A DNA stretch of 43,925 nt, from positions 1 through 43,925 of the forward strand of contig JAHJKP010000002.1 in assembly GCA_018821985.1 (NCBI GenBank). Reading direction: 5' to 3'. The notes under the pieces were generated by a model. It made no database searches, was not told the origin of the DNA, and worked only from the letters and a program-made list of their open reading frames with translations. A program made the translations under genes and the position numbers. The DNA comes from Pseudomonadota bacterium (lineage in GTDB: Bacteria; Desulfobacterota; Desulfobulbia; Desulfobulbales; Desulfocapsaceae). Below, in pieces: positions 7,031 through 25,023 of the stretch. Each line of letters starts with the position of its first letter. The first letter of the stretch is position 1.

Positions 7031-8542
7031 TTATTCAAGGCCATATTTTTTAAGCCAATTTGTTAATGTCTGGTAGTTCGCTAAGTTTAATAATTTCGTA
7101 GCGTTTGCCTTATTGCCACGGGTTTCTTGCAAGGCTTCTCGAAGATAATGGGTTGCGACCGTTTGCATGATTTCCGGTAAATCTATACCTTGTGAAACCG
7201 GCTTACCTAAAAAATTATCCGAAACGTTATGTTCAGAGGGATTAGGCAGCAAAGCCTCCCTTACATCATTCTCCTGAATAACGGTTTCCGGTGACCAAAT
7301 ATACAATCTGGTAATGGTATTAATCATTTCCCGAATATTGCCCGGCCAAGAATGGTTTAGCAGAAGATTCCTTGCGGAAGCAGAAAGTATTTTATCTTCA
7401 TCAGTTGGGAGTAGTCTGCTTTCTTTATTAATCCGCTGTAAAAACGTATCCAGCAGTAAGTTCACATCCCCTTCTCTTTCCATAAGAGGCGGAAGCAGTA
7501 AAACAGCAACAGCAAGACGATAAAATAGATCTTCCCGAAATCTTCCGGCCGCTGTCTCTTTAAAAAGGCTTCTGTTTGTTGCTGCAATAATACGAACATC
7601 AATTTTCTTTGATCTGGTAGCTCCAACCGGCTTCACCTCGCCCTCCTGTAAAACACGGAGAAGCTTTACCTGCATCATAAGTGGCAGTTCGCCGATTTCA
7701 TCAAGAAACAAAGTACCGGAATCGGCTGCCTCAAAATGACCTTTCCTGCTCGTCGCAGCACCAGTAAATGCACCTTTTTCATGACCAAACAATTCTGACT
7801 CGATTAATTCTTCTGGAATTGCACCACAGTTAATCGCAATAAAAGGTTTTTCAGCACGTGGGCTTTCTGCATGGATTGCTCTTGCAAACAGCTCTTTCCC
7901 GGTACCACTTTCCCCCTCAATCAATACAGGGATTGTACGACTCGCTGCAAGTCGCGCTTTTACAACCACCTGCTGCATGATTTGGCTTCGATAAACAATG
8001 TCGGAAAAAGCCTTGGTATCACTTGAAAGCCCAGAGGCAAGCTGAACTATTTTACTATCTGGTGCATACAATTGAGGAGGGATGAAATCGGCAGCGATAT
8101 CAAACGGTATCGACACTGTCTTTACACCGTGATCAAGCGATGACTCTATAAGCTTTGCCGGGAATTTGGTTTTACTGAGGATAATCCACACAGCTGCCAT
8201 GGCTGGTGTGCCTGGGCTGAGATGAAAAGTAAAGGATGCTTGTTCGGGTAAATCTCGCTGTATATCTTGAAGGATATTGGAAGCTGAATGGTAAATATCG
8301 GAATAATCGGTTGGGCTGGAAAGTGAAACGAAGTGGAGGCTGACCTCTTTAAATTGACAGGTCTCTTGAAGCCATTTCTGATACTGCTTTCCCTTTGCTT
8401 TAGGATAATCGCATAACAAAATCAACTCATCCCAAACCATCTCTTTAACAGCTTGGGCAATAGGGCCGACTCCACATCTTTGAGGTTCTTTGATGGCCCC
8501 TAAATCAGTTGCACCTATCCAAGTGAATAAAATATTTTGCAT
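7031..8542 (-). CDS. CARF-like sensor / AAA+ sigma-54 activator (RtcR-like)
   Basis: The 503-aa protein has three parts. Residues 1-160 form a Rossmann-like sensor with HLSPGTPAMAAVW (107-119), the turn typical of CARF domains that bind cyclic oligonucleotides or RNA ends. Residues 180-420 are the AAA+ domain of sigma-54 enhancer-binding proteins: Walker A GESGTGKE (210-217), the sigma-54-contacting GAFTGA loop (257-262) and Walker B TLFLDEIGE. The last 45 residues are a Fis-type helix-turn-helix. The architecture matches RtcR, which switches on RNA repair genes, but no rtcA or rtcB lies nearby. Instead a consensus sigma-54 promoter for the ATPase/PLD-like pair begins at its stop codon. No clear ribosome binding site is present; the ATG sits inside a palindrome (8529-8566). 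Confidence 0.88.
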   Translation of the reverse strand: MQNILFTWIGATDLGAIKEPQRCGVGPIAQAVKEMVWDELILLCDYPKAKGKQYQKWLQETCQFKEVSLHFVSLSSPTDYSDIYHSASNILQDIQRDLPEQASFTFHLSPGTPAMAAVWIILSKTKFPAKLIESSLDHGVKTVSIPFDIAADFIPPQLYAPDSKIVQLASGLSSDTKAFSDIVYRSQIMQQVVVKARLAASRTIPVLIEGESGTGKELFARAIHAESPRAEKPFIAINCGAIPEELIESELFGHEKGAFTGAATSRKGHFEAADSGTLFLDEIGELPLMMQVKLLRVLQEGEVKPVGATRSKKIDVRIIAATNRSLFKETAAGRFREDLFYRLAVAVLLLPPLMEREGDVNLLLDTFLQRINKESRLLPTDEDKILSASARNLLLNHSWPGNIREMINTITRLYIWSPETVIQENDVREALLPNPSEHNVSDNFLGKPVSQGIDLPEIMQTVATHYLREALQETRGNKANATKLLNLANYQTLTNWLKKYGLE

Positions 8543-8566: not shown

Positions 8567-8647
8567 ACCTATTTACAATATATTTTATACTCCACAAGAT
8601 GCTAATCACACGAATAAAGTCCATTTTTATAAATATAACAATGGTGG

Positions 8648-8715
8648 GGTCAGGTCTTGCAATCAAACATTTCTTGTTAGGTTGCTTAATCTTTGTGTGG
8701 TTGCAAGACCTGACC
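8648..8715. repeat. REP-like inverted repeat at the 3' end of the R-M gene
   Basis: Arms GGTCAGGTCTTGCAA (8648-8662) and its exact reverse complement (8701-8715) enclose 38 bases. The stop codon of the methyltransferase gene lies in the loop, and its last residues are encoded by this element. It resembles a REP or MITE insertion; it could also weakly terminate transcription, though no T-run follows. Confidence 0.6.
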
Positions 8716-11554
8716 GAGTTTTTTGTTTTGCCCGATCCAAATTCATGGCCAGCAACCGGGAGAGAATGGTTTCATCTGTCATCTCCGGCGTGTAGTCGGC
8801 CCAGCCGTAGGCATTGGCTACGGTGGCGTCTAGTTCGCGGTGGGCAGACACGAGCCAGGCCGGGTGGAGGTTGTAGAGATTGGTCAGGGTTCGCTTTTTC
8901 AGGTCTGCCTCGTGGCCCGGTTTGGCAATCGGGCGTTTTGGGAAACCAGCCTTCTCTTCTTCCGGGGTGATCACCCAATCCACCCATTCGGTTGGATTGA
9001 GCCAGGCTTCCCGCAACTGGTTGAGGCGAATAGCGGCATCGTCGATTTTTTCAGCAACCGGCCCGTTGGGTGCGCCGTTGGCGGTGTCCGCCGGGGTCAG
9101 GCCTGCAGGGAAGGGGAAGGTCTCAAAAACAGAATGAGCGTTGTAAGTCGGATCATTACCAACTCCGTGCCATGAACAAGTTGCAAGCGACCAAACCTCA
9201 TGGAACCGACTGGACACTATCCCGAATGTTGAGTCGTCAGAGCGAGCAATAATGCACAGCCGAGAATCTGGCGAAGTAAGCGCATTAAACCAGACAAACA
9301 AGCGGTGTTTGGAAACGCGGGGCGTGCAGATGAATCGCTTTAGCCCATTGCAAGCGTTACGAAAGTCGGCACCATTTCGGCCAAAGCGCCACCAATTTTC
9401 ACGCCTGCCCCGATCATTATTTTTATCCCGTTCCGGTTTAATAAAATGTAGAATATGCTCAAAAGGTTTTTCATAAAGGCTAGCAACCCTCTGGCTGATG
9501 TCAATGCCAAAATCTATAATCCAAGTATCTGATGGGCGTTTAACGATGTCTTGCCCATTAGCCCAAGGTTTAACAATATCGCTATTTGGTAGTCCGTTGG
9601 GGTTAGGTTGTTTCAGCCACTGTCGGGCAAGATCACCATGGATATCAAAAGCCCCACTTTTCTCTGCACCTTTGAAGGCCGTCCCCCAATTCTCCACCAA
9701 TTTCCCGGCCATGGTCATGTCCAAGCCACCATCAGAACCCGTCAAATCCGCATGAATGACCGTCACGGGCATGCCGTCCAGCCGAACACCTTCACCCTTC
9801 CCGAAACAGATCAAGGACACCCGCACCGCTGCACCGTCGTTGACCCACTCTTCATCTGACCAAGCTTCAAAGATCTTCGTAGTTGCCACGATACGGTCTA
9901 GCACCTTCCGGTTTGCCCCGCTCCGGATGGCGCTGGTGGCAACCAGCCCGGCGGCCATTACCTTACCCGCCTCGATCTGTGCCCGCGCCTTCTCAAACCA
10001 GTAGGTCACCAGATTGGCCCCACCAGGCACGCGGTCACCATAGCATTTTGCCAGGGCGTCAAAGTAGTCGCCGCCCAGTTCCCCGCGTTTTTTGCTGCCC
10101 CCTAAAAACGGCGGATTGCCTACAATCACATCGGCCTCAGGCCAGCTCGCCTCGCTGCCGTCTGGATTCAGCAGGGCGTCACGGTGTTCGATGGAGTCCA
10201 GCGAGCGGAGAATGGGATTTCTGATAATCTCCCGGCCATTGCGGCGGCACCACTGGATATCGCCTATCCAGACAGTGGTGCGGGCCAGCTCGGCGGCGTA
10301 ATCGTTGATCTCCAGCCCGAGAATATTGTGCGACCCGGTACGCAGCCATAGTTCCGGCTGATAACCCGCCAGCTCCTGGGCCTCAATGAGGACTTTCCGC
10401 TCTACATCACGCAGGGCAATCAGCGCCAGATACAAAAAATTCCCCGATCCGCAGGCCGGGTCAAGCACCCGGAAGCGGCTCAGGCGCATGAGAAAACCCT
10501 GCCAGGCAGCATTCGCATCCTTGTATGCGTTGCTCCTCGGCCCTTTGCCATGACCGGCGGCGATAACCGCCTTGGCTACCTGCCATTGGGCCAGCAGGGG
10601 ATCGGTGATCAAGGGGTGGATCAGTTTGGCGATGGTGTCGGTGTCGGTGTAGTGTGCGCCCAGCGGGGCACGAGTTGTTGGATCGAGGCTGCGCTCAAAC
10701 AGGGTGCCGAAAATGGTGGGGTCAATGGCCCGCCAGTCCATATGGGCTGCCTTGTGCAGAGCGGCAAGATCGTCCGGAATCAGGGCTGGAATATCCACAG
10801 TTTTGAAGAGGCCGCCGTTGAACCAGGCAATATCATGGTCACCATATTCGCCGCCCCCTTCTTCCCGCATGGCAACAAAGAGTCGGTTGATCCGACTTGC
10901 CGCCTTCCCGGCATCGTCACCGGCATTCTTGAGGATTCCGGTAAAGACCGAGCCTGGCAGCAGCTCCTCATCCTCGGCAAACATGCAGAAGAGGCATTGC
11001 ACCAGGAAATGGGCGACCTGCTGGCCGTCAAGCCCGCGGCCTCGCATAGCCATGGCAAGCCCAGCGAATTTCCCGGCAGCCTCGCCGGTGATGGCGGCGG
11101 TGGATTTTTCCGGACGGAGTTTTTCCGGGTCGGTGAAAACCCAGCGCAAGAGTTGCAACGTGCCTGGATCGGTCAGTTCCTCGATGCGGATTTCGAGCGG
11201 CTGGTCAGGATAGCCGGTGAAGGCGGTGTGGATGATGATCCGCTCCCGGTCGCACACCACCAAGAGGGGCGGGTTTTCCAGGCGCAGGGCATAGTCGGTC
11301 AGTTGCTTGAGGGCGGTGTTCAGGTCGCGGCCCGGTTTTTTGTTCTCCCAGCCGAAACAGCCACGCTTCCAGACATCGGCCCACCCATCGCCCCCGCCAG
11401 CCTTTTTAGCCCCCCGCTCAAAGCAATAGCTTTCAGGGTCACGGGGCTTATCAACTCCCAGCAGGTCGCAGAGGTCGTCAAAATGGGCCTGGGCTCCGCC
11501 GCGTTCGCTGAGGGTATTGTTTCGCCAGAGAGTGATGAATTGTTCAGGAGTCAT
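8663..11554 (-). CDS. MmeI-like type IIL restriction-modification enzyme
   Basis: The 963-aa protein joins endonuclease and adenine methyltransferase in one chain, as in MmeI (about 920 aa). An N-terminal domain carries a PD-(D/E)xK-like site around residues 60-75 (ADVWKRGCFGWENKK, E-x-K present). A helical spacer follows. The methyltransferase has SAM motif I DPACGSGNF near residue 362 and the amino-methyltransferase motif NPPF near 478. A target-recognition region and a C-terminal segment follow. It should cut and methylate unmodified DNA by itself, with no separate R or S gene. The final 15-20 residues (TRSGLATTQRLSNLTRNV) come from the REP-like repeat and are not family sequence. The gene is GC-richer than its left neighbours. 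No strong ribosome binding site was seen. Confidence 0.85.
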   Translation of the reverse strand: MTPEQFITLWRNNTLSERGGAQAHFDDLCDLLGVDKPRDPESYCFERGAKKAGGGDGWADVWKRGCFGWENKKPGRDLNTALKQLTDYALRLENPPLLVVCDRERIIIHTAFTGYPDQPLEIRIEELTDPGTLQLLRWVFTDPEKLRPEKSTAAITGEAAGKFAGLAMAMRGRGLDGQQVAHFLVQCLFCMFAEDEELLPGSVFTGILKNAGDDAGKAASRINRLFVAMREEGGGEYGDHDIAWFNGGLFKTVDIPALIPDDLAALHKAAHMDWRAIDPTIFGTLFERSLDPTTRAPLGAHYTDTDTIAKLIHPLITDPLLAQWQVAKAVIAAGHGKGPRSNAYKDANAAWQGFLMRLSRFRVLDPACGSGNFLYLALIALRDVERKVLIEAQELAGYQPELWLRTGSHNILGLEINDYAAELARTTVWIGDIQWCRRNGREIIRNPILRSLDSIEHRDALLNPDGSEASWPEADVIVGNPPFLGGSKKRGELGGDYFDALAKCYGDRVPGGANLVTYWFEKARAQIEAGKVMAAGLVATSAIRSGANRKVLDRIVATTKIFEAWSDEEWVNDGAAVRVSLICFGKGEGVRLDGMPVTVIHADLTGSDGGLDMTMAGKLVENWGTAFKGAEKSGAFDIHGDLARQWLKQPNPNGLPNSDIVKPWANGQDIVKRPSDTWIIDFGIDISQRVASLYEKPFEHILHFIKPERDKNNDRGRRENWWRFGRNGADFRNACNGLKRFICTPRVSKHRLFVWFNALTSPDSRLCIIARSDDSTFGIVSSRFHEVWSLATCSWHGVGNDPTYNAHSVFETFPFPAGLTPADTANGAPNGPVAEKIDDAAIRLNQLREAWLNPTEWVDWVITPEEEKAGFPKRPIAKPGHEADLKKRTLTNLYNLHPAWLVSAHRELDATVANAYGWADYTPEMTDETILSRLLAMNLDRAKQKTRSGLATTQRLSNLTRNV

Positions 11555-11664
11555 GTGGCTATGCTCTTTTGTATCCGTCGCAGGTCTTGCTTAAACCAGG
11601 AGAATGGCAATCGGCGAGAATAAGGAGAATCAGGGTTCCAAATACTTAGTCTAACAAGTAATTC

Positions 11665-11676
11665 TGCAGATCTGCA
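11665..11676. promoter_or_regulatory. 12-bp palindrome between divergent R-M and helicase genes
   Basis: TGCAGATCTGCA is a perfect palindrome 111 bases upstream of the R-M start codon. It may be an operator, but no local regulator gene is seen for it. Confidence 0.25.
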
Positions 11677-11846
11677 TATCACACAGACTTGCAATGGTGT
11701 GCATATTTTTCTTTACAAACAAACTCAGGCTCTTTGCTTTTCTTGCCTAAATAATTACGGTAATGTACCAATATATCGTAAAATATTCTTGAAAAATTTG
11801 CTGTGATCAAATATTCGCTTTTCTGCATATCTGGAAGTATCTAACT

Positions 11847-11990
11847 TTTCAGTTTCCTAGCCATTGTTTGACCTTGCCACTGGTTTCCTCTTAAAATGTT
11901 TTCCAGAATTACTGGTAATTATATTTCTATTGTGATTGAATGAATAGCTATTCATTTTAAATCGGGGAGAAGAAGTCAGGAAAAATCTAT
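11847..11990 (+). repeat. flanking direct repeat, copy 1, with likely promoter
   Basis: Positions 11861-11883 match 18632-18654 at 22 of 23 bases, and TGTGATTGAATGAAT recurs at 11931-11945 and 18702-18716. The distance between blocks is identical (78 bp) in both copies. Similarity fades outward over about 140 bp. It includes TTGACC (11868-11873), 18 bases and TAAAAT (11892-11897), a fair sigma-70 promoter for the helicase gene, and a perfect 16-bp palindrome at 11940-11955 (ATGAATAGCTATTCAT). The next 80 bases lead to the helicase ATG without another gene. Confidence 0.75.
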
Positions 11991-12075
11991 AAATCAAATT
12001 TTAAAGTTATGCCAAAAATGATAGAAGAACCGTAAGCTGCTTGTCTTTTGCTTTGGTTATACTTTTGGAGCCGCC

Positions 12076-15000
12076 ATGGTTGAATTACCTCAACAGTCGC
12101 AAGCGGAGTCCCCTCTCTCCGTAGAGGTTGAGTACACACCGTTCATAAACTTCGCGATGCAGCAGAACGCAGTACCACTGCTTCGGTCGCTTTCGGTGAC
12201 GAACTTTTCCGACAAACAGGCCTCAAACTTGGTTGTGCGTGTGTGGAGTGACCCATCGGTTGTAGCAGAAAGGACGCTGCGGCTTGATGCGATAGCCTCT
12301 GGGGAGAATTACGCTTTTTCTGACCTCGCCCTCACACTCCTCCGCGAACCACTTCGCAGACAGTCTGAGCGCGAGGATGGGCATCTGTGGATTGAGATCT
12401 CAGCCGACGGGATTACACCTACACGGAAACTGCTTCCTTTATCTGTGCTTGCCTACAACGAGTGGTACGGCGTCTCTTCTCTACCGGAGATCATCGCCGC
12501 GCATGTTCTTCCCAACGACCCCGCCGTTGAACGCATCCTGGTCGAGGCATCAAAGCTACTGCTGGAGAAGACGCAGGACGGCTCGCTGTCGGGATACCAA
12601 AGCGGCGACCCTCGCCGTGCGTATGCCCAAGCTGCTGCGATATATTTCGCGGCGGCGCGGCAGAAGATCAGCTACATTAACCCTCCGGCAAGTTTCGAGG
12701 CGACAGGACAGAAGATCAGAACTCCCGAGCATTTGCTCGACCGTAAGCTTGGCACCTGCATGGACACTACGGTGCTGCTCGCAGCGTGCTTCGAGCAGGC
12801 CGGGCTGCGATCGGCGGTTGTTCTGGTGGAAGGGCACACCTTCCCCGGAGTGTGGCTCGTGGACAAATCCTTCGATGACATTGTAACCGGTCACGCTTCA
12901 ATCCTCATGAACCGGATCAGATTGGGCGAGTTCATGGTAGTTGAATCGACGGGGATAGCTAAGGCCCCCCCCTTAAGCTTTAAGATCGCGCGGGAGCAGG
13001 CGACAACCCACCTCAGGACTGAGGTACGCTTTCACTTTGCTGTGGACGTGAAAGCTGCCCGCAAGATCGGCATTCGACCGTTGTCGCTGACCGAGGAGGT
13101 TAAAGGGCCAGCGAGCGAGGACGTCTGCTTTGATAGAGAGACCGAACCCGTCTGTGAAGACCTCATCGCCCCGGAAACAGTCGCGGATACCGGTAGCAAA
13201 AAGTCGACATGCCCCCCTCGCGAACAGGAGAGCGCCGTCGACCGTCTGGCCCGGTGGAAGAGCAACCTGCTCGACCTCAGCCTCCGGAACCGCCTGCTTA
13301 ACTTCAAGGATTCCAAGAAGTCGATCCCACTGCTCTGCCCAGATATCGCAGGTTTAGAGGACGCTCTGGCCGCTGATGAAGTGTTTCGCGTGCGCTCGAA
13401 ACCGGGTGCATGGGGGGCGGCAGACCCTCGCGACGCCGCTCTGCACCAAGAGCAAACGGGTGTTGACGCTCTGGCGGATTATCTGCACGAGGAAATGACC
13501 CAGCGGCGGGTGCATGCAGCCGTGACCGAGCGCGACCTTTCGGTTCGCCTCACCGAGATCGAGCGCGCCACCCGTCTGGGACTGGAAGAGGGAGGCGCGA
13601 ATACCCTGTTTCTCGCCCTCGGTTTCTTGGTGTGGACTGAGACAGCGACGAGCGACATCGAGCGACGCGCACCGATCCTCCTGATCCCGATGAGCATCGA
13701 ACGTAAGGCCGTGCGCGACGGGTTCCGTATCCAGCGTATTGACGAGGAGTCGCGGATCAACATCACACTGCTTCAGAAGCTCAAGGAGGACTTCGGCATC
13801 ACCATTGATGGTCTGGATCCCCTGCCCGAGGATGAGTCCGGTCTGGACGTAGCGAAAATCCTGCGAACTTTACGTGACGCTATCAAACGTCAGCCGCGCT
13901 GGAAGGTAGAAGATGACGCCAGCCTCACCATCCTCACTTTCTCAAGATTCCTGATGTGGCTCGACCTGGAGGCGAACGCCGAAGAACTTAAGAAGAATGC
14001 GGTCGTCCGGCACCTGATCGAGACCTCGAATGAGTTGTTTGATCCGGATGCGTCGTTTCCTGACCTGGAGAACCTCGACGACCGGTATTCACCATCGGCC
14101 ACATTCTGCCCGCTGCATGCCGATTCCTCACAGCTCCGCGCCGTTTACGCGGCGGCGGAGGGACGAACCTTTGTGCTGCAAGGTCCGCCGGGCACTGGGA
14201 AATCTCAGACGATCACTAACCTGATCGCCCATTGCCTGACGGTTGGGAAGCGTGTGCTATTCGTAGCCCAGAAGCGGGCGGCGCTCGATGTGGTGCATAA
14301 GCGTCTTGCGGATGTCGGACTTGGCCCCTTCTGCCTGGAGCTGCACTCGAATAAGACGACGAAAGAATCTTTCCGAGCGCAGCTGCGCGAGGCGCTTGGC
14401 GTGGCCGGGACAGGATCCAGCGAACACTGGGAGAGGGAGACGAGCCGCCTCGCCGAGCAGCGGAAAGCGTTGAACACGTACGCGCATGATCTGCACCAGC
14501 CCCGGGCGTTCGGGAAGAGTGCATACTGGGCTATCTCCCAAATGATCGGTCACGACGGAGAAAAGAAGGTGTCGTTGGACCTTGAGCAGGGCACGAATAG
14601 GACGCCAGAAGAGTACCACCAGATGCGCGCGGCGATCAGGGAATTGATGGAAGTCGCACGCATCACAGGAGAACCGTCCCGTCATCCCTTGAAGGCCGTC
14701 GGGTTGAAGGAGTGGAGCTACGGCATTGAGGAGGATGTTCTTCAGCTGATCCGGGCTACAGAGAATTCCGTCCAACGCCTGCAACAGATAATCGCCTTTG
14801 TAATGCCAGAAATGGGTCTACCGGTCGAAAATTTGTCCCTGGCCGATTTGGAAAAGGTGCAAGTACGCTGTATGGCACTGGTTGCCGACTCGGACAGTTT
14901 GATGCGCCAGGTCGAGAACCTTCTGGGGACTTTACCCAGTGCCGATGTTGGGCGCGTGCCTGAAGGCCCATCGTCCGATGTGGTTGCTGCCGAGGATCAA

Positions 15001-18000
15001 TGGGTCGAGTTTCAGAGACGCATTGAGCATTGGTTGGGACAAGCTCGACAGCGTCATACGAAAATCCTCTTCAGAGTGCAATCCCTCCAACGTTTTCAGA
15101 ATGGCTTGAACCTTAACCGATATCCCGCATTCCAGGGGATTCGCTGGGAAACCTTTGGGTGGGATGTTCAATCCATTAGCGATCTCCAAAATCTCATCGA
15201 TCAGTTAATGGACCTGCTCAAGCGGTGGGCGACGGAACTTCAGCGGCAGATGGATATGTACAAGAATTGGTTGGAGCTGATCACCGAGAGAATTTTCCTC
15301 CCGAACGGAGTACTCACAACCAAGGATTGGGTCGGGTTGCGGGATCGATTGTTGGATGCGATCCGGAGGGGGAAAGCCCGAGACGAGATGCGTAAGGGGC
15401 TACTGGCTGAATACTCCCCGCAATTGCTGGAACTGGACGTGGGCCAATTACTGGATTCCTGGCACAACAAGGATAGCCAATGGTTGTTCAAACGGTGGTG
15501 GAACAGTCGCGCGGTTCGCAAGGAGATAGGCAGAGTCTGCCTGCGCAAGCCGGGGAAGGCCGACGATTTGAAAATGGAGAAAGACCTGGAGTGTGCTTGT
15601 CAGGTCCTTCAGGAAAGCCATCGATTGGCATCGGAAGATGGGGAAGCCGCTCAATTCTTTCATACAAAATGGGCGGCAGGGGAAGCGGAATGGGCGGGTC
15701 TGGAAGAGGCTGTGGCTTGGGCCGATCAGTTCAGGAGAACCATTGACGCCATACCGGAGCGGGATCACACGGTGCCGTCGATGGTTGAGGATGTTTCCCA
15801 CCAGATAAACGAGGCGGGTAAACGGATTATTGGCGATAAGGGTAAGACAGGAGGAGCTTTTGTCGAGTTTCTTAAAACCCTTGAGGCTTTTCGGGAAGCC
15901 CAGCATCGCCTGGAAGGTACACTTTGTCTTTCCTTGCCATGGGGCGACGAAAGCGTACCAGGTTCGTTTGACAACGTGGAAGCCGTCCTCCAGAACCTCA
16001 CATCGAATCTCTCGCGCCTTCGGGAATGGACTCACTACCAAAGTGCCCGCGCCGCCGTTGTGCACCTTCATCTGTCCGGTGTGGTGAATGACCTCGAACA
16101 GGGCAACGTGGGTATATCCGAGGTAGAATCACTCTTCGAGCACTCCTTCGCTGACTGGTGGGTGCGGACAGTACTGAAGTCGATCCCCTCTCTTGTCGGC
16201 TTCATCGGAGAGCGGCATGCCCTGAAGATTCGTGAATTTCGGGAGCATGATGCCAAAATTGCCGACCTGACCAAGAAGGAGACTTTCGCCCGAATCGCCA
16301 GTGGGATGCCACGAGTGGCGTCGGCCGGACAGCGCACGCCCGCCAGCTCCGAAGCAGGCCTGCTCCAGCGGTTCTCGCAAGGAGGACGAAAGACAATCCG
16401 GCGTATTTTCAAGGAATGTCCCAACGCACTCGCCAGGTACAAACCGTGTCTCCTTATGAGTCCGCTTTCGGTGGCCCAGTTTATCGGCGCGGACTTCCCG
16501 AAGTTCGATATGGTCGTTTTTGACGAGGCATCACAAATGCCGACCTACGATGCAATCGGTGCTATTGCGCGCGGAAATCAGCTAATCGTGGTAGGCGACT
16601 CCCGTCAGCTCCCGCCGACCAGCTTCTTTGAGCGGCAGAAGGGCGACGAAGAGTACAGTGAGGACGACATGCCTGAGGAACTGGAGAGCATTTTGGAGGA
16701 AGCGGAGGCGGCGGGAATAAAGCCTCTGCGCCTTGACTGGCACTACCGAAGCCGCCACGAGAGCTTGATTGCCTTCAGCAACCGGCAATACTATGAGAAC
16801 CGGCTCCAAACTTTCCCGGCCGCGCTCGCGGAACATCCGAGGCTCGGTGTCCGGTGGTGCGAGGTTCCGGACGGGGTGTACGACCACGGGAAGTCACGCA
16901 CGAACCTCAAAGAGGCGGAGGCGGTGGTCGCCGAGATCATCAGGAGGCTGCTCGATCCCCAGGAACAGAACAACTCCCTGGGGGTTGTTACCTTCAGTCA
17001 GGCACAGCAGAGCCTCGTTGAAGATCTCCTGGACGCAGCGCGAGGTGAGTACCCGGAGATTGAACCGCATTTCACGACAGTCAGTGAACCTGTCTTTGTG
17101 AAGAATCTGGAGACGGTCCAGGGTGACGAGCGTGACGTGATCCTTTTCTCGATCTGTTACGGGCCGGACGTTGCCGGGGTCATTCGCATGAACTTTGGTC
17201 CGTTGAACAATAAGGGCGGAGAGCGGAGACTCAATGTGGCCGTAACCAGAGCTCGCAAGCAGTTGCTGGTCTTCTCGCGGCTCCGCCCGGAGCAGATCGA
17301 CCTCTCCCGAACTCAGGCAACTGGCGTGCACGACCTGCGGACTTTCCTCGACTACGCGAAACGCGGTCAGGTTGCATTTGCAGAAGAGGTCGCCCGCACT
17401 CGTGGCGAGGTGGAATCTTTCTTTGAACAGGCTGTCTTGGATGAACTTACAGCGCGGGTTTGGCAAGTAGATCCTCAGGTGGGTTGTTCAGGATACCGGA
17501 TCGATCTCGCCGTTCGCGATCCCGAATTCCCCGGGCGGTACATTCTTGGTGTTGAGTGCGATGGTGCGAACTACCACAGCGCTAAGTCTGCGCGAGATCG
17601 TGACCGGATTCGCCAAGCGGTGCTGGAAGGCCTCGGCTGGCAACTGCACCGCGTTTGGTCGACCGACTGGTGGCTCCAGCGCCCCAAGGAGATCGCAAAA
17701 CTAGAAGAGGCACTTGAGCTTGCGAAGCAGAAGTTCAGAGCCGCGGACGATTTGGACCTGAGTCCTCCGGCAAACATCCCTCCGGCGTACGTTCCAATTG
17801 ATAATACTATTCAGCAGGAAATGAACCAGTCATTTGCAAGGGAAGCGGCAGTTGTTGAACAAAAGCCTCTCAATCCCCTTCCTGACGTTGTCGAGTTTCC
17901 GGGGCAGTCGATCTATCGCCGTTATGAGGGCACATCGACCTTCTCGGGCGAGCTTCAAGATCCGACCAATGCCAGTAATGTATGCGACTTGGTCAGGTTG

Positions 18001-18456
18001 ATCGTCGAAACAGAGGCCCCCCTACTGTTCGACATACTCTGCTCCGAAGTCGCGTCTGCCTGGGAACTAAAAAGAGCAGGAAGCCGTATTCGCGAGACAG
18101 TACGGAACGCGGTGAAGCAGAACGGTTTTGAGGTGCGTCGCTCGGGAAAACGAGAGTTTATCTGGATCAAAGAGTTGTCAGAGAAGCCTTACGAAGGTTT
18201 CCGCATCCCAGGAGAGAGAGATCCAAAAGCACGCAGGGCGGAGGAAATTTGCCCGGAAGAGATAGCCAACGCGGCGGCCCTGGTCCTAACTCTACACATC
18301 AGTATGGACCAGAATGACCTTACGCGAGAGACTGCCAGCGTGTTCGGCATCACGCGGCTCGGTAACAAAGTGCGGTCGTCCTTCGAGGAGGGTATAGAAC
18401 TCATGAAAAAAAACGGAGGGTGTCGAATCGAGGGGGAGAGCCTCGTTGCGCCCTGA
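12076..18456 (+). CDS. DUF4011 / SF1 helicase / Vsr-like nuclease / DUF3320 giant
   Basis: The 2126-aa protein has, in order: a strand-rich N-terminus; a transglutaminase-like segment (about 225-260) with GTCMDTTVLLAACF and a downstream GHTFPGVW, possible Cys and His; DUF4011 from about 390 (RLARWKSNLLDLSLRNRLLN); an SF1 helicase with Walker A GPPGTGKS near 700, a long helical insertion, motif II FDEAS near 1483, then GDSRQLPP and VAVTRAR; a Vsr-like endonuclease domain at 1775-1870 (YRIDLAV, then GVECDGANYHSAKSARDRDR); and DUF3320 at the end. Proteins of this architecture occur in defence islands and are thought to unwind and cut foreign nucleic acid. The ATG follows ggag. It stands alone between two direct repeats and is GC-rich beside AT-rich cassettes. 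Confidence 0.88.
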   Translation: MVELPQQSQAESPLSVEVEYTPFINFAMQQNAVPLLRSLSVTNFSDKQASNLVVRVWSDPSVVAERTLRLDAIASGENYAFSDLALTLLREPLRRQSEREDGHLWIEISADGITPTRKLLPLSVLAYNEWYGVSSLPEIIAAHVLPNDPAVERILVEASKLLLEKTQDGSLSGYQSGDPRRAYAQAAAIYFAAARQKISYINPPASFEATGQKIRTPEHLLDRKLGTCMDTTVLLAACFEQAGLRSAVVLVEGHTFPGVWLVDKSFDDIVTGHASILMNRIRLGEFMVVESTGIAKAPPLSFKIAREQATTHLRTEVRFHFAVDVKAARKIGIRPLSLTEEVKGPASEDVCFDRETEPVCEDLIAPETVADTGSKKSTCPPREQESAVDRLARWKSNLLDLSLRNRLLNFKDSKKSIPLLCPDIAGLEDALAADEVFRVRSKPGAWGAADPRDAALHQEQTGVDALADYLHEEMTQRRVHAAVTERDLSVRLTEIERATRLGLEEGGANTLFLALGFLVWTETATSDIERRAPILLIPMSIERKAVRDGFRIQRIDEESRINITLLQKLKEDFGITIDGLDPLPEDESGLDVAKILRTLRDAIKRQPRWKVEDDASLTILTFSRFLMWLDLEANAEELKKNAVVRHLIETSNELFDPDASFPDLENLDDRYSPSATFCPLHADSSQLRAVYAAAEGRTFVLQGPPGTGKSQTITNLIAHCLTVGKRVLFVAQKRAALDVVHKRLADVGLGPFCLELHSNKTTKESFRAQLREALGVAGTGSSEHWERETSRLAEQRKALNTYAHDLHQPRAFGKSAYWAISQMIGHDGEKKVSLDLEQGTNRTPEEYHQMRAAIRELMEVARITGEPSRHPLKAVGLKEWSYGIEEDVLQLIRATENSVQRLQQIIAFVMPEMGLPVENLSLADLEKVQVRCMALVADSDSLMRQVENLLGTLPSADVGRVPEGPSSDVVAAEDQWVEFQRRIEHWLGQARQRHTKILFRVQSLQRFQNGLNLNRYPAFQGIRWETFGWDVQSISDLQNLIDQLMDLLKRWATELQRQMDMYKNWLELITERIFLPNGVLTTKDWVGLRDRLLDAIRRGKARDEMRKGLLAEYSPQLLELDVGQLLDSWHNKDSQWLFKRWWNSRAVRKEIGRVCLRKPGKADDLKMEKDLECACQVLQESHRLASEDGEAAQFFHTKWAAGEAEWAGLEEAVAWADQFRRTIDAIPERDHTVPSMVEDVSHQINEAGKRIIGDKGKTGGAFVEFLKTLEAFREAQHRLEGTLCLSLPWGDESVPGSFDNVEAVLQNLTSNLSRLREWTHYQSARAAVVHLHLSGVVNDLEQGNVGISEVESLFEHSFADWWVRTVLKSIPSLVGFIGERHALKIREFREHDAKIADLTKKETFARIASGMPRVASAGQRTPASSEAGLLQRFSQGGRKTIRRIFKECPNALARYKPCLLMSPLSVAQFIGADFPKFDMVVFDEASQMPTYDAIGAIARGNQLIVVGDSRQLPPTSFFERQKGDEEYSEDDMPEELESILEEAEAAGIKPLRLDWHYRSRHESLIAFSNRQYYENRLQTFPAALAEHPRLGVRWCEVPDGVYDHGKSRTNLKEAEAVVAEIIRRLLDPQEQNNSLGVVTFSQAQQSLVEDLLDAARGEYPEIEPHFTTVSEPVFVKNLETVQGDERDVILFSICYGPDVAGVIRMNFGPLNNKGGERRLNVAVTRARKQLLVFSRLRPEQIDLSRTQATGVHDLRTFLDYAKRGQVAFAEEVARTRGEVESFFEQAVLDELTARVWQVDPQVGCSGYRIDLAVRDPEFPGRYILGVECDGANYHSAKSARDRDRIRQAVLEGLGWQLHRVWSTDWWLQRPKEIAKLEEALELAKQKFRAADDLDLSPPANIPPAYVPIDNTIQQEMNQSFAREAAVVEQKPLNPLPDVVEFPGQSIYRRYEGTSTFSGELQDPTNASNVCDLVRLIVETEAPLLFDILCSEVASAWELKRAGSRIRETVRNAVKQNGFEVRRSGKREFIWIKELSEKPYEGFRIPGERDPKARRAEEICPEEIANAAALVLTLHISMDQNDLTRETASVFGITRLGNKVRSSFEEGIELMKKNGGCRIEGESLVAP

Positions 18457-18524
18457 GGAAAATTCCGGGGACACTTGACCGAATTCCAGCAATAAAATGC
18501 AGCAAATAACCCGGTGATTTTTGC

Positions 18525-18544
18525 GTTAATATTGCCACATCGAA
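18525..18544 (+). repeat. 20-nt repeat, copy 2
   Basis: Identical to the minus strand at 2359-2378 and likewise just downstream of a gene, here 69 bases after the helicase stop. Confidence 0.6.
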
Positions 18545-18617
18545 TATCTGATTTTATCCAACTGTCCTCGGGTTAAACCTTACTGTGCCGTTACGTATAA
18601 TCAGGAAGAAGCTCTTC

Positions 18618-18761
18618 TTTCTGTTTACCTACCATTGCTTGACCTTGCCACTGGCATCTTTTTAATTCTTTCCCCAAAATTCCTATTATAAATATTTTAC
18701 ATGTGATTGAATGAATCAACGTTCGTTTTTATGACGAAAGGAGAATTTGGAAAAATATAAA
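18618..18761 (+). repeat. flanking direct repeat, copy 2
   Basis: This copy matches 11847-11990 in blocks (see that entry), with TTGACC at 18639-18644 and a weaker TAATTC 18 bases on. The palindrome of copy 1 is degenerate here. No gene starts within 280 bases downstream, so it may be the orphan promoter of a gene lost when the next cassette arrived. Confidence 0.7.
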
Positions 18762-18882
18762 AGTCAGTGTTTGATTAACGGGTTAAGAAGGTTGATCCTG
18801 AATATGTTGGGAAAACACGGACGGCTCAATATTAAAGAAAAATACTAGACAGAATCCGCATAGCACAATATTGGCTCATTCT

Positions 18883-19033
18883 GCCTAATACACTGATGTC
18901 CCCGCTTCGCGGGACATCGCCCCGGATGAGTAGCGCTTTTGCTACGATCTAATATCAAGGTAAATCAAACTCCGGGACATCAAATGGATTGAGGTAGACG
19001 CAAACAAAGCGCTACTCATCCGGGGCGTTCGGC
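18883..19033 (+). repeat. large attC-like site at the head of the plus array
   Basis: A perfect 22-bp inverted repeat (18918-18939 and 19006-19027) ends exactly at GTTCGGC (19027-19033). A smaller hairpin (gatgtccc ... gggacatc, 18895-18918) lies at the left. GTTCGGC is the exact reverse complement of GCCGAAC at 20721-20727, the end of the next cassette, so 19027 is a real cassette border. The left box (gcctaat, 18883-18889) is a poor RYYYAAC match, and arms this perfect are unusual for attC. Confidence 0.55.
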
Positions 19034-19050
19034 GTATCAAGAAGGTGAGA

Positions 19051-19647
19051 ATGAACTATTTCTGCCACTTGGATTCATCCGGTGATCTTGAGTACACAAA
19101 TCTTCAGCTTTACTCGCTTAAGAAGGCCGCTGATGCGTGGAACGAACTCCTTGATGGTGTCACCGATACCGGTCTTGACAGCGTTAACCATCTGCGCGAA
19201 CGCCTTACGTTCATCGTAAGCTGTCTAGGGCTTTCCTTGTCGCAATTGATGGGACAGAACTGCCCTTCTCATGACAAGGAGAAGATAGATCAGCCAGGCG
19301 AGTTGCTGTCCAATATTCTGAACCGAACGAGTGTGGATCGTACAACGAAGCGCCTATTGAACAGCACGTTTGGAGATTTTTTGAAATATTATGGAGCTAT
19401 TCGGCACTTTGGAAGGAACCTGGATGATAATAACTATGAGGTAGTGCGGAAGTTGACTATCAGTGAACTCAACCGTTTTATAAAAATGACAATCCAAATC
19501 TGGGATCTGGTTATCGGTATTTACCGCCAAAACAGGGAGAACGAAATTGATGATGACGTATCATCAGTCTCCAACATTGTATCGTTTAACAGTCTTGCCA
19601 AACAACAGAATGTGGCTGCAAAACTTAACAACAGATTTATGAAGTAA
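19051..19647 (+). CDS. unknown helical cassette protein, 198 aa
   Basis: I do not recognise the family. It is largely helical, soluble, and rich in Asn and Asp, with an RHFGRNLDDNNYE loop that recalls R...H loops of some HEPN proteins but is too weak to assign. The ATG at 19051 is preferred to the GTG six bases earlier because aagaagg is then well placed. The gene begins 24 bases after the GTTCGGC border, typical for a cassette. The next gene starts six bases after its stop, so the two act together. Both carry YTNLQL followed by a helix: near residue 14 here and in the middle of the partner. Confidence 0.6.
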   Translation: MNYFCHLDSSGDLEYTNLQLYSLKKAADAWNELLDGVTDTGLDSVNHLRERLTFIVSCLGLSLSQLMGQNCPSHDKEKIDQPGELLSNILNRTSVDRTTKRLLNSTFGDFLKYYGAIRHFGRNLDDNNYEVVRKLTISELNRFIKMTIQIWDLVIGIYRQNRENEIDDDVSSVSNIVSFNSLAKQQNVAAKLNNRFMK

Positions 19648-19653
19648 AATCTT

Positions 19654-20550
19654 ATGATAAAATTCGTTTCTTCCCTTTTTGGTTCAAAAGAGTGTGAGCG
19701 GCCTACAAATGAATCTGACATTAGAAAGTATGCAGAAAATGCATTGTCAGGACTTGGTGTCTATGCCACTAATTCCTTGTCGGATGATTGGCCTAAGTGG
19801 GAAAAAAAGATGGAAGAAGATCTTGGTTATTTAGAAGTCCAGGCTCAAAAATTTTCAAGTCCTCATCTTTATACACAAGCAGGCAACGGGTGGGGCCTTT
19901 TTGCCATATGGTATCGCAGAAAAAAGGATGACAAAACAATCCCACTGAGGCGTGGCATATCATTGTTGGAAAGAGCTTTGGGGATTGATCCTGACTTTGA
20001 GAAAGCAAAAATAGCACTTGGTTCCATTTTGGTGGAAAGACAACAGGTTCGTGATCTAAATCGTGCTCTCCTTTTATTGAACTCAATTCAAAACAAATCA
20101 GGGCAAACTCAAGAACTTATAAGTAAAGCAAAACGCTGGCTTGGCGATATCGATTTTGACCAAAGTTTTGACTATACCAATCTGCAATTACTTCCTTTAA
20201 ATGCTCTGAGGGAAGAATTGAAAAAATGCAGAGCATTAATAAGAAATTTAATAAAAGATAAAAACTTAGATAAAATGCGCCCTGTCCTTGAACATATGTA
20301 TCGCCTTGCAGTGCTCCATGATGCGGCAACTTATGTGGTGCTACATGGTGACTATTTTATTGATAAAAATAAAGACAGGGCTTGGGACAAAAAACTTCAA
20401 AAAATTGTTAACTCCATCAATAAGTTTTCTTACAGTTCTAATGGGGCAATTCCCTCTGGAGAAGGCTATCTTTCCAAAAACGACAATAAAAACTTTCAGC
20501 TGGTTTTTGGAGAAACATCAAAAGTTTTCCTTCCAGCAAAATTATTATAA
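19654..20550 (+). CDS. TPR-like helical protein, second gene of cassette
   Basis: The 298-aa protein has tetratricopeptide-like helices in its middle: GISLLERALGIDPDFEKAKIAL and the next helix pair match the TPR pattern of alternating small and aromatic residues. The N-terminus (FVSSLFGSKECERP) is not a signal peptide. The C-terminal third is helical and ends VFLPAKLL. TPR proteins mediate protein binding, and the likeliest partner is the 198-aa product six bases upstream. A known function cannot be named. The DNA is AT-rich like the other cassettes. Confidence 0.6.
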   Translation: MIKFVSSLFGSKECERPTNESDIRKYAENALSGLGVYATNSLSDDWPKWEKKMEEDLGYLEVQAQKFSSPHLYTQAGNGWGLFAIWYRRKKDDKTIPLRRGISLLERALGIDPDFEKAKIALGSILVERQQVRDLNRALLLLNSIQNKSGQTQELISKAKRWLGDIDFDQSFDYTNLQLLPLNALREELKKCRALIRNLIKDKNLDKMRPVLEHMYRLAVLHDAATYVVLHGDYFIDKNKDRAWDKKLQKIVNSINKFSYSSNGAIPSGEGYLSKNDNKNFQLVFGETSKVFLPAKLL

Positions 20551-20720
20551 AAAGGTTAAAAAACAGGTAGTTACTTTATAATATTTGATTAAAACACGCG
20601 TTTAGGTTCAATCTCAGGGCAAATTATGGGAAAACAGGCAGATTGTGCCATTCAAATGACACGGACACTAAATCAATACTTGGCCAATATTTCGTACCTC
20701 AAGTCAATAAAACGAAATGA
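20551..20720. other. non-coding tail of cassette before attC
   Basis: AT-rich sequence between the TPR-like gene and the attC. I see no gene, terminator or promoter I can support. Confidence 0.4.
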
Positions 20721-20930
20721 GCCGAACCAGGCGGTTCACTTGACGCCGAGAACGTCTGCGGCGCTGACGCGGCAAGCGTGTTGGCGGCGCAAGTGACCTT
20801 GGTCGATAAGCTCGCCCGCTGACGCGGACGAGCTTATCGCTGCTGTTGAGTAAACTCGAACACCCTGACAGGTTCCGCCTATGGCTACACCTATCAAGGC
20901 GTTCGAGTTTACTCAACAGCAGCGTTGTAC
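20721..20930 (+). repeat. oversized attC-like site with nested hairpins
   Basis: It runs from GCCGAAC (20721-20727) to GTTGTAC (20924-20930), about 210 bp, longer than usual attC sites. The first part looks like a normal attC arm pair (ggttcacttg with caagtgacc). Then come a hairpin with 11-bp arms (20804-20814 and 20829-20839) and a perfect 23-bp inverted repeat (20839-20861 and 20901-20923). The motif GCTGACGCGG occurs twice (20763-20772, 20818-20827) and again in two later attC sites. Probably two attC sites fused. Confidence 0.65.
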
Positions 20931-20964
20931 TCAAAAAAGCATAGAGGCATAAACAAGGATATTC

Positions 20965-21723
20965 ATGGTTTGTCATCTACACGATTTAATAGAATCTATA
21001 GATCAGAATAAGATTTTGTGTATAGAGCCAATCAACGATGAAGAGTTTGATGAAATAACTAGGAAATTCAAAAACGTTGCATCGCAGGCAATCTGCTTCG
21101 ACATGGGTGAAGTTGACGAAATGCCCAATATTGCCCCTGTTTATGAAATGGTGAAAGAACCATTCCCAACATGCTGGTTTGAATTCAATTTTACTCATAC
21201 TGATGGAACTCAAATAATTCTTGGTATGTTAGTGGTTGTTCGAGACGAAGTTCAGATCACCTCTTTCCGGCGCAAACACAAGCAATGGTGTATACGGGGA
21301 GTTATAATATTAGACTCTCTATCTTCGTGGGAAAATTTCGGTTTATTTCCACCTGTTGATGTAGTTGGTGAGGAACTAAAGCAACACAAAATAGTTCTCT
21401 CAACATTTTTATCGGCTTTGAACTGCAAAAATGTAAAAAGGGTTGAGCATAAACCAGAGCCAAAATTACAAAAATCTAGAAGGAAAAGAGGAAAACTACC
21501 GCTGTTCTCACACTGGTCATTAGAACTCGCAATACCAGGCACTTCCAATAACAACTCCAAAAGTAATGGTACTAAATCCTCACCTCGAGTTCATCTTAGA
21601 AGAGGACATCCACGTCAATACACACCAGGGAATTGGACGTGGGTTCAACCATGTATGGTTGGAACAGGAAAAGGAATTGTAACAAAGGACTATGTAGCAA
21701 AGTTTGAAGGCTCCGAGGAATAA
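20965..21723 (+). CDS. unknown cassette protein with RRGH-type C-terminal motif
   Basis: The 252-aa protein has an acidic alpha/beta N-terminal part and a basic linker (QKSRRKRGK, about 170-178). Its C-terminal 45 residues read RVHLRRGHPRQYTPGNWTWV and then PCMVGTGKG plus KDY. A similar tail (RxHxRRGHxR ... WVxPxxVG) recurs in phage and prophage hypotheticals, from my recall of such families; function unknown. The gene begins about 35 bases after the GTTGTAC border and ends 17 bases before its own GTACAAC box, so it is the only gene of a verified 900-bp cassette. Confidence 0.6.
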   Translation: MVCHLHDLIESIDQNKILCIEPINDEEFDEITRKFKNVASQAICFDMGEVDEMPNIAPVYEMVKEPFPTCWFEFNFTHTDGTQIILGMLVVVRDEVQITSFRRKHKQWCIRGVIILDSLSSWENFGLFPPVDVVGEELKQHKIVLSTFLSALNCKNVKRVEHKPEPKLQKSRRKRGKLPLFSHWSLELAIPGTSNNNSKSNGTKSSPRVHLRRGHPRQYTPGNWTWVQPCMVGTGKGIVTKDYVAKFEGSEE

Positions 21724-21740
21724 ATAACTAAAGAAAAGCC

Positions 21741-21830
21741 GTACAACAATTTAATTCAGCGGATGGCGTGATCGTATGCGGCGCTGACGCGGCAAGTTCA
21801 TTGGCGCCACCGCTGATCAAGACGTTGGGC
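21741..21830 (+). repeat. attC site
   Basis: GTACAAC (21741-21747) to GTTGGGC (21824-21830), 90 bp. The inner arms cagcgg and ccgctg pair, and the loop carries GCTGACGCGG (21783-21792). GTACAAC is the exact complement of the border GTTGTAC at 20924. Confidence 0.85.
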
Positions 21831-21845
21831 AGTAAAATATACTAA

Positions 21846-22970
21846 ATGCAAAGAATAGATAAAGATACACTTAAGGAACTTGAAGAATCTTTAACCGAGG
21901 AGTTAAAGGAACTAGAAAGTTCCACTTTACAAAGAGCAAGCCTTATCGCAGAGAAAAAAGTATCTATCCAATCATTACATGGGTATCTTGGCGGGAAAAA
22001 CAACCATTACGTTGATAGCATTCGTTCACAGTTCCCTTCCCCTGATGATTTCATTAGTAAATGGATTCAAGGTTTACTCTCAAGAGTAAAAGAAATCGAA
22101 GATGAACAGCGTGTAAAATATAACGGCAACATTTACCAGAACTCAACATCACACAAAATCTTAAAGTTAGTACAAGACCCCATAGTTAATAAATATTTCT
22201 TATGCTTTCTTAAAAGAAATTTCTTCAGAAATATCAAAGAAAGAACAAGAGAAAAACCGAGTTATATACATTGGAAATTGTGGTTCGGTGAAAACCAAAT
22301 GCCTTGGGGTTTAATAATTGCACCAGCGTATAGAAAAGGCGAATGGACTAATGATGTTAGTGAAATAAGAAGAGCTGATTATCAGTATTGGACTATTGGC
22401 CATATTCTTTCAACTGGGCTAATTGATCCTGATAACAAAAATCCTATCCACTTTCATGACATTAAAGAGTTTGTCGTTTTCTATAAAAGTGTCTTGAAAA
22501 GACTTTCAAAAAGTCAATATGAAAAGCAAATAGTCGACTTGTATTTGGAATACTTAGAGAAATCTTCGAATCCACATGATGAGCCATTTTTAATTCCAGA
22601 ACTTCGATATGCTGGTTTAGAAAAAAATCACAAATACCGATTAGATTTTTCAGTTTTGAATTCTCATGTAATGGAATTTATTGGCTTTGAGTTGAGTCCT
22701 CACTCAACTCACATGGCAGTCAAAGGAATTAAAGGTAGAAAACAAAAAGACGTAAATGATGAGATAAAAGAAAAATGGAGCAAGGAAACATCAAAGAGGA
22801 ATGAATATTTTTTAAGTTATGATATTTCAACAATAACTTTTTCAGACAAAGAGCTTGAAGACATAGATTCTTGTTTTGAAACAATAGCGGCTTTTTTACA
22901 AAAACGGGCTCCAAAATCAACATCACTTAAAACATCACTGAAAGAACTAAGTGCTTTTCAAATAAAATAG
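21846..22970 (+). CDS. unknown protein, possible REase-like fold, 374 aa
   Basis: The N-terminal 120 residues are helical and charged, possibly coiled coil (ELEESLTEELKELESS). The C-terminal part has IPELRYAG, then YRLDFSVLN, then GFELSPHSTH, which resembles the D ... E-x-x spacing of PD-(D/E)xK nucleases (RLDF followed by an ExD/ExK strand), but the expected Lys is a Ser here. I therefore give a fold suggestion only. It begins 15 bases after the GTTGGGC border, and its stop is four bases before its own GCCCAAC box, so it fills its cassette. The ribosome binding site is weak, as is common when expression relies on upstream cassettes. Confidence 0.6.
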   Translation: MQRIDKDTLKELEESLTEELKELESSTLQRASLIAEKKVSIQSLHGYLGGKNNHYVDSIRSQFPSPDDFISKWIQGLLSRVKEIEDEQRVKYNGNIYQNSTSHKILKLVQDPIVNKYFLCFLKRNFFRNIKERTREKPSYIHWKLWFGENQMPWGLIIAPAYRKGEWTNDVSEIRRADYQYWTIGHILSTGLIDPDNKNPIHFHDIKEFVVFYKSVLKRLSKSQYEKQIVDLYLEYLEKSSNPHDEPFLIPELRYAGLEKNHKYRLDFSVLNSHVMEFIGFELSPHSTHMAVKGIKGRKQKDVNDEIKEKWSKETSKRNEYFLSYDISTITFSDKELEDIDSCFETIAAFLQKRAPKSTSLKTSLKELSAFQIK

Positions 22971-22974
22971 AATA

Positions 22975-23038
22975 GCCCAACAAAATGTTTCAGCGGAAGC
23001 CTCTAACTGCGCGGCTCTCGCTGAACACTACGTTATCA
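22975..23038 (+). repeat. attC site
   Basis: GCCCAAC (22975-22981) to GTTATCA (23032-23038), 64 bp, with arms tttcagcg and cgctgaa. GCCCAAC is the exact complement of the border GTTGGGC at 21824. Confidence 0.85.
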
Positions 23039-23061
23039 CCCCACAATAAAAGGAGGTTACT

Positions 23062-23265
23062 ATGGCTGATCATGTCTTATTACAACACGCAAAAAGAAAA
23101 CCATTCTCAAGTACGCCAGACATGCCCGTTGGGGCAACTTTTGATCACAAAAAAGGGTATTGGGTTAAAGACGGTAAAGAGTTGGTAACACAAGGTTCAA
23201 AGTATGGCGCTATGGTTTCAAAAAAATGCGATCAAGAGACTGGCGAGGATCAAAAAGGAGAATGA
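23062..23265 (+). CDS. possible precursor peptide for the ATP-grasp enzyme, 67 aa
   Basis: A small hydrophilic protein with a very strong ribosome binding site (aaaaggagg). A leader-like first half (MADHVLLQHAKRKPFSS) is followed by FDHKKGYWVKDGK and a tail dense in Lys, Thr, Asp and Glu (SKKCDQETGEDQKGE). Graspetide precursors end in cores where an ATP-grasp ligase joins Thr, Ser or Lys side chains to Asp or Glu, so this tail is a plausible core; that is inference. Its TGA overlaps the ATG of the ATP-grasp gene by four bases (ATGA). It starts 24 bases after the cassette border at 23032-23038. One Cys lies in the tail. Confidence 0.65.
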   Translation: MADHVLLQHAKRKPFSSTPDMPVGATFDHKKGYWVKDGKELVTQGSKYGAMVSKKCDQETGEDQKGE

Positions 23266-24979: not shown

Positions 24980-25013
24980 GTTTTCAGGCCCGCGCCTGAT
25001 TTCGTCGTTAGCC
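24925..25013 (+). repeat. attC site overlapping the membrane protein gene
   Basis: CGATAAC (24925-24931) to GTTAGCC (25007-25013), 89 bp, arms tcaggcg and cgcctga, loop motif GCTGACGCGG (24967-24976). CGATAAC matches the complement of border GTTATCA at six of seven bases. The first 55 bases also encode the end of the membrane protein. Confidence 0.85.
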
Positions 25014-25023
25014 GTTTTCTATC

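Follow-up and report, generated by a model that had tools for sequence, protein, structure and literature searches.

We examined a 43,925-nucleotide stretch of DNA (hereafter the window; contig JAHJKP010000002.1 of assembly GCA_018821985.1, a bacterium of the Desulfocapsaceae), in which a gene coding for a giant helicase is bracketed by two direct repeats, w1 and w2, the second of which is joined to a sequence resembling an integron attI site and is followed by a candidate array of gene cassettes. The features that define the bracketed segment are the following.

11818-12012, forward strand: w1, the 5' copy of the repeat (profile match of 139.9 bits), with a TTGACC-18-TAAAAT motif, the presumed helicase promoter
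12076-18456, forward strand: helicase of the PDC-S37/Hhe type, 2126 amino acids, with the Pfam domains DUF4011, AAA_11, AAA_12, MTES_1575 nuclease and DUF3320
18526-18587, forward strand: R4, which begins G^TTAATATTGCC, follows attC-like hairpins at other loci and is read as an array end
18587-18784, forward strand: w2, the 3' copy (profile match of 194.3 bits), a dispersed promoter-like repeat

The initial annotation of this locus had described two repeats of about 140 bp with equally spaced blocks and nothing but the helicase between them, and had proposed that a promoter cassette was duplicated when the gene came in. The repeats are real and not due to chance: the alignment of 11847-11990 with 18618-18761 scores 50.8 (z 13), compared with a mean of -7.5 (standard deviation 4.5) and a best score of 9.1 for 1000 dinucleotide shuffles, and with the perfect blocks removed the remainder, identical at 70 of 111 positions, scores 22.3 against -4.9 (standard deviation 3.9) for shuffled sequences, none of 1000 of which scores as high. 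Had the sequence outside the blocks failed to exceed shuffled sequence, the initial annotation would have counted as refuted; no such failure is seen. The block TTGACCTTGCCACTGG is common to both copies (at 11868 and 18639) and is followed in both, 63 bp on from start to start, by a second block TGTGATTGAATGAAT (at 11931 and 18702); the identical register is thus retained, but the reported spacing of 78 bp, a figure that depends on how it is measured, was not reproduced. The copies are longer than first described according to a profile built from nine family members, w1 and w2 among them, and the segment between them contains, besides the helicase open reading frame, the short repeat R4 just before w2. 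Since the longest exact block common to w1 and w2 is about 16 bp, loss of the helicase through recombination between them appears unlikely; no case of it was seen, and no strain with one copy and without the helicase at this locus was found in a sample that included no strains below the species level.

The sample comprised 58 genomes, 17 of the same genus and 41 from outside it, available as drafts in many contigs. The repeat belongs to a family of dispersed intergenic sequences of about 195 bp, present at an E-value threshold of 0.001 in 11 of the 17 same-genus genomes and in none of the 41 others. The source genome contains more copies, which the initial annotation had not noticed: searching it with w1 gave further matches on contigs C29, C26, C43 and C47, nine full or partial copies align (w1, w2 and seven more), and a 16-bp core word with up to three mismatches has 73 matches versus 25 for the reversed control. 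Across the genus loci (410,745 bases searched) the profile matches 59 times, with tandem copies at L144 and L149. Over the full model w1 and w2 are only 62% identical, and each is closer to copies found elsewhere, w2 to one on contig C29 of the same genome (87% identity) and w1 to copies in other species (78% in G002 and 77% in G009). In a tree of 32 copies the two fall in separate clades, with local supports of 0.99 and 0.97, so that duplication of a single cassette around the helicase is not supported as their origin. They are better seen as members of a promoter-like family that is dispersed through the genus and specific to it. The initial annotation had also suggested that the repeat might be the signature of a mobile helicase unit. 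Such a unit with flanking direct repeats would suit the two same-direction copies and the accessory nature of the gene, whose close form occurs, among the 58 genomes, only in the source genome (in four others there are relatives that show 32-43% identity over the stretches listed). However, the bracketing copies are of different clades, the family precedes many unrelated genes genus-wide and is therefore not the mark of a helicase unit, and the only other homologue of the genus, in G012, has no repeat in about 1.5 kb around its matches. We give this explanation almost no credence.

The copies are strongly oriented with respect to genes. With genes called by a longest-open-reading-frame rule and no trained gene finder, the next gene on the 3' side lies on the same strand for 43 of the 49 scorable copies and not for six (null of 0.48 derived from 83 gaps without repeats, p 7e-9), after exclusion of four of the 59 profile matches with scores below 24 and of six of the other 55 as unscorable; some of these copies are tandem or in orthologous places and are thus partly non-independent. 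The genes concerned are unrelated (hemerythrin, MreB, radical SAM, PilZ and GGDEF proteins, a NorB locus, histidine kinases, aldo-keto reductases, TrmO and a GIY-YIG protein), and paralogy of the downstream genes was rejected as the cause of the repeat for this reason. Of 32 copies, 15 match a sigma-70 promoter at nine or more of 12 positions at the fixed TTGACC/TTAACC place, a level reached by 0.7% of shuffled sequences. A homologous short sequence 5' of non-homologous genes is also the pattern by which mobile promoters are recognised, and we infer that the modules would act as promoters. The initial annotation is borne out in that the repeats are promoter-like, lie 5' of genes and mark a region of mobile genes.

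A GGDEF gene that has the repeat resembles two relatives lacking it only from about 10 bp before its called start, and the 5' regions therefore differ. A histidine-kinase orthologue has the repeat in the source genome and in G012 and none in G008, where another gene takes its place, and this comparison yields no clean insertion reading; for the TrmO orthologue there was one homologue only, at 53%. Insertion of a miniature inverted-repeat transposable element at intergenic sites would explain copies that are dispersed, short, non-coding and sometimes tandem, and transposase-domain genes do lie near one w1-type copy (L140). Yet the orientation towards genes is far from random, the ends vary between copies, terminal inverted repeats are not apparent by eye in the alignments and no clean empty site with a target duplication was found, making this origin very unlikely. 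An insertion sequence terminus was rejected because no inverted ends are apparent by eye. An RNA leader or riboswitch was rejected as well, RNAalifold giving three pairs for 18 copies, none with changes on both sides, and an Rfam search at gathering thresholds of the window and seven loci returning two tRNAs only.

Downstream of w2 the window contains the following features.

18766-18895, forward strand: R6, the tail of w2; ends ACTG^ATG and over its last 65 bp or so shares homology with the intI-side attI of relatives
18896-19027, forward strand: R7, an attC-like inverted-repeat element between R6 and cassette 0
19028-20924, forward strand: cassette 0, start GTTCGGC at 19027, attC core GCCGAAC at 20721
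20925-21824, forward strand: cassette 1, start GTTGTAC with its G at 20924, attC core at 21741
21825-23032, forward strand: cassette 2, start GTTGGGC with its G at 21824, attC core at 22975
23033-25007, forward strand: cassette 3, start GTTATC with its G at 23032, attC core at 24926
25008-25869, forward strand: cassette 4, start GTTAGCC with its G at 25007, attC core at 25849

A 19.9-kb query from the window against the genus showed a mosaic of repeats in the intergenic DNA. Among these, R6 matches DNA beside intI, the integrase gene, in G009, G012 and G002 (with E-values of 6e-19 at locus L156, 1e-15 at L159 and 4e-14 at L157), where the adjoining integrase is divergent (467 amino acids in G009 and G002) and the site ends in ...TACACTG^TT. 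Sites beside intI in three more genomes (G001, G007 and G011; loci L155, L158 and L160) have the same end, with blast E-values of 3e-4 for L158 and 0.01 for L160, and when four intI-side sites are aligned with six others away from intI the alignment continues throughout. The ACTG^TT end is found in 12 of the 17 R6 copies that reach this point, or in nine of 14 if the three intI-side copies are left out; four of the remaining copies have ACTG followed by other bases, the one in the window included, and one is degenerate. The core and R6 form a shared compound unit at unrelated loci, the R6 tail being present in seven of the 11 core copies aligned for their tails, and where R6 occurs without the core a same-strand gene follows after 12-58 bp, in all six loci fetched for it.

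This modular composition could also be taken to mean that the module of about 195 bp is a mobile promoter and nothing else, spread by an unknown copying process and with incidental attI-like tails, since the core carries other tails in four of those 11 copies, R6 occurs without the core and the 5' bias of the copies is strong; elements of this kind are already in print, as passages of PMC8049555 and PMC9208149 indicate. We regard this view as improbable, as it leaves unexplained the G^TT boundaries, the attI homology and the presence of cassettes after the sites.

The places of the window cassettes were first spotted by eye. In all five the start is reverse-complementary to the cassette's own attC core, although the 6-mer of cassette 3 recurs by chance and the single 7-mers of cassettes 1 and 4 are also found elsewhere in the stretch. 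The fold z-scores of the attC sequences of cassettes 0 to 4 are -13.3 (a value that reflects an additional inverted repeat), -2.1, -5.2, -0.3 and -1.8. The boundary of cassette 4 is confirmed by G006, where homology on contig C76 begins at window position 25007, behind a different attC-like sequence. The scanned proteins of the array are mostly without a Pfam match, and for the one encoded at 23226-24203 the scores against ATP-grasp peptide-maturase models stay under the respective cut-offs. A 36-bp inverted repeat, 92% complementary, lies within the attC of cassette 0 at 20838-20924, and similar repeats of about 100 bp, 94-97% identical, occur in G002, G003 and G006. R7 itself is a 132-bp inverted-repeat element, of which G009 has at least eight copies at 95-98% identity, and is possibly a cassette without an open reading frame lodged between R6 and cassette 0.

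A second attI-like family is found on the other side of the helicase, where R2 and w1 stand back to back and R2 points to the left.

11651-11831, reverse strand: R2, a dispersed attI-like element that points to MmeI, with the crossover point G at 11655
8663-11554, reverse strand: MmeI-type (type IIG) restriction-modification gene, read as the cassette behind R2

In 14 of 16 R2 copies a TG^TT end is followed by unrelated sequence, and at 13 of the 14 fetched loci (the exception is L182) the start of a gene lies no more than about 100 bp away on the side to which R2 points; no integrase was found in these 14 loci with five integrase queries. The MmeI region has the same GTTAGAC start on contig C29 of G014, where it lies behind an attC-like hairpin, and MmeI is therefore read as a cassette for which R2 would stand in for attI. 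Both MmeI and cassette 4 thus stand in relatives behind sequences other than those that precede them here. Genus-wide, at 11 of 23 R2 and R6 sites (eight of 17 away from intI and three of six beside it) the first bases after the site pair exactly with the core of an attC-like hairpin in the next 4.5 kb, compared with a mean of 8% and a maximum of 25% in a control with permuted cores; this strict test dropped two matches to the R2 pattern (L192 and L200) that lacked blast support. A palindromic repeat with many copies in the genus surrounds the 3' end of MmeI (8644-8724).

A tblastn search of the window, with five genus integrases as queries and E-values up to 0.1 allowed, detected no intI. The full intI of the source genome is located on contig C16, and full intI genes occur in nine of the 17 genus genomes, this one included. 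On source contigs C50 and C54, sites align over 20-30 bp, a length too short for tblastn, with the intI start region of relatives. In G012, two loci with R6 copies (L101 and L113) contain integrase-like pieces with internal stop codons. Such remnants, and the G^TT that is not intact in five of 17 R6 copies, raise the question of whether each site without intI is what is left of a separate complete integron, nothing being supplied in trans today. Independent decay alone is not expected to leave the core and R6 as a compound unit at unrelated loci, full intI genes persist as said above, and integrases less than 40% identical can use the same attC, at least according to a passage of PMC12901181. 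We consider such decay to be rather unlikely, though it shares its anatomy with the reading that we favour and the confidence placed in the two overlaps.

That favoured reading, which we hold to be probable, is that the dispersed sites are promoter/attI platforms without an integrase of their own that head cassette arrays, and hence a variant of the integron. It accounts for the 5' bias of the repeats, the unrelated genes behind them, the abrupt G^TT ends and the homology to attI. In the window, w2 would be such a platform, a module joined to an attI-like site and followed by a five-cassette array, while w1 would be the promoter of the helicase, which stands between w1 and R4. An integrase made elsewhere in the genome, for instance from the full intI on C16, would act in trans to join circular cassettes at G^TT, at the 3' end of the platforms, and the platform promoter would transcribe whatever was captured. 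Both activities of the platforms, promotion and recombination, are predicted here from sequence comparison. The window array would work like an integron platform, and we do not call it a complete integron because intI was not found in the window.

Several observations weigh against this reading. Concerning the window platform, R6 ends ACTG^ATG and not ACTG^TT and is parted from cassette 0 by R7, and this attI copy may therefore be dead; no attI tail can be recognised at w1; and a promoter scan of the window lists w1, though not above the number expected by chance, and has no entry at w2. Concerning the cassettes, the attC of cassette 3 folds no better than shuffled sequences and those of cassettes 1 and 4 only weakly better, 12 of the 23 R2 and R6 sites have no core-matched attC within 4.5 kb, and the R2 site in the window is among those for which none was found. 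Neither of two earlier attC scans was successful, one having no hit in either sequence or control and the other 14 hits versus 27 in the reversed control, and a looser core-match test did no better than its control (21 of 25 versus 16-22). The boundary of MmeI on contig C81 of G014 is at the same place and reads TCAGAC instead of GTTAGAC. As for the helicase, what might be its attC is a remnant at best, and a cassette of 6.5 kb would be very large. Last, the attI that goes with the full intI of the source genome differs somewhat in type, and "away from intI" means that no intI lies within the fetched 3-20 kb, in genomes that are multi-contig drafts.

More tentatively, and with somewhat less than even confidence, we propose that the genus keeps several scattered promoter and attI pads, none with its own integrase, to which one or a few IntI proteins feed cassettes in trans, MmeI and possibly the helicase being among the cargo. 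If so, captured genes would be expressed from many places rather than from one array, integron-type genes far from any integrase would be explained, and cassette arrays without an integrase would have a concrete and testable source.

An integron is usually pictured as one integrase, one attI and one array with a single promoter at its head. The window resembles chromosomal integrons in its attI-type site with G^TT, in the pairing of cassette starts with attC cores and in the promoter-like sequence 5' of the array, but its site has no adjoining intI, there are several such sites per genome, and some share a promoter-like module that we did not observe next to the intI-side sites that were examined. 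CALIN (clusters of attC lacking integrase) are likewise cassette arrays without an integrase, whereas here an attI-type site and a promoter-like module are kept at the head of the array. Mobile promoters, reportedly described by Matus-Garcia in 2012 and van Passel in 2014, have in common with our family the homologous short promoter-like DNA 5' of unrelated genes, but the module is joined here to a site-specific recombination site. The attG sites, at which cassettes insert in the genome away from intI, diverge from classical sites as stated in a section of PMC12901181, while R6, which also has cassettes away from intI, is homologous to the intI-side attI. The delta-attI cassettes of mobile integrons, in which a fragment of attI replaces the attC of the cassette (PMC12901181, same section), also place attI copies away from intI, but the attI-like copies found here head arrays. 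No description of dispersed attI platforms was found in searches of an open-licence library.

The helicase best matches the PADLOC model PDC-S37 (1317 bits), with Hhe second (610 bits); no paper on PDC-S37 was found in one literature search. It has the set of domains, DUF4011 with an SF1 helicase and a nuclease domain, that we take to define Hhe-type defence helicases, and appears to be an accessory, defence-type gene. A scan of named genomes with six peptide patterns, from which records of near kin were possibly excluded, retrieved a Desulforapulum metagenome-assembled genome (58%) and two Dyadobacter genomes (38% and 36%). On the 3' side of the gene, the R4 start G^TTAATATTGCC is matched at nine distinct places in the fetched loci, eight of them with G^TT, and most are preceded by an attC-like hairpin as judged by eye. 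In the window R4 stands after the helicase and CCGGTGATTTTTGCG, which has AATAAC just before it and could be the 3' half of an attC. On the 5' side, AAAG^TTATGCC occurs at 12006/12007, and because ATAAC pairs with GTTAT the helicase may represent a 6.5-kb cassette whose attC is damaged. The copy closest to w1, on contig C25 of G002, precedes another core copy, after which comes R4; no gene intervenes, and the arrangement resembles the site before a gene arrived.

The surroundings are a defence-rich accessory region. To the left of the helicase are the MmeI-family type IIG restriction enzyme, an AAA ATPase related to defence ATPases and, beside these defence genes, the following regulator; to the right are the cassette array and a MazF/PemK toxin.

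7031-8542, reverse strand: CARF-AAA-HTH regulator, a sigma54 activator of the RtcR_PspF2 type

A DUF4011 gene is also reported, in a passage of PMC10250203, as a conserved flank of the defence hotspot cDHS1 of Pseudomonas aeruginosa. A link of the w1 subfamily to defence genes was rejected, five nearby proteins giving no PADLOC match.

Within w1, an 18-bp perfect palindrome at 11939-11956, identical in the G009 copy at L140, is a candidate operator. A TetR-like operator common to the family was rejected, the palindrome being perfect elsewhere only in that copy and reaching at most seven of nine pairs in the other 30 of 32, and it is at best a feature of the subfamily. The two transposase-domain genes downstream of the w1-type copy at L140 (3746-5809 of this locus, on contig C89 of G009) carry Zn_ribbon_IS1595 and DUF772 domains. 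Core copies in G002 and G016 (L108 and L109) stop near a GTGCG-like sequence, and a group II intron maturase gene adjoins the G002 core copy; introns may target the repeat. Finally, GTTACGTATAMT (window 120-131) occurs 16 times in the source genome, often near contig ends, versus 0 for the reversed control.

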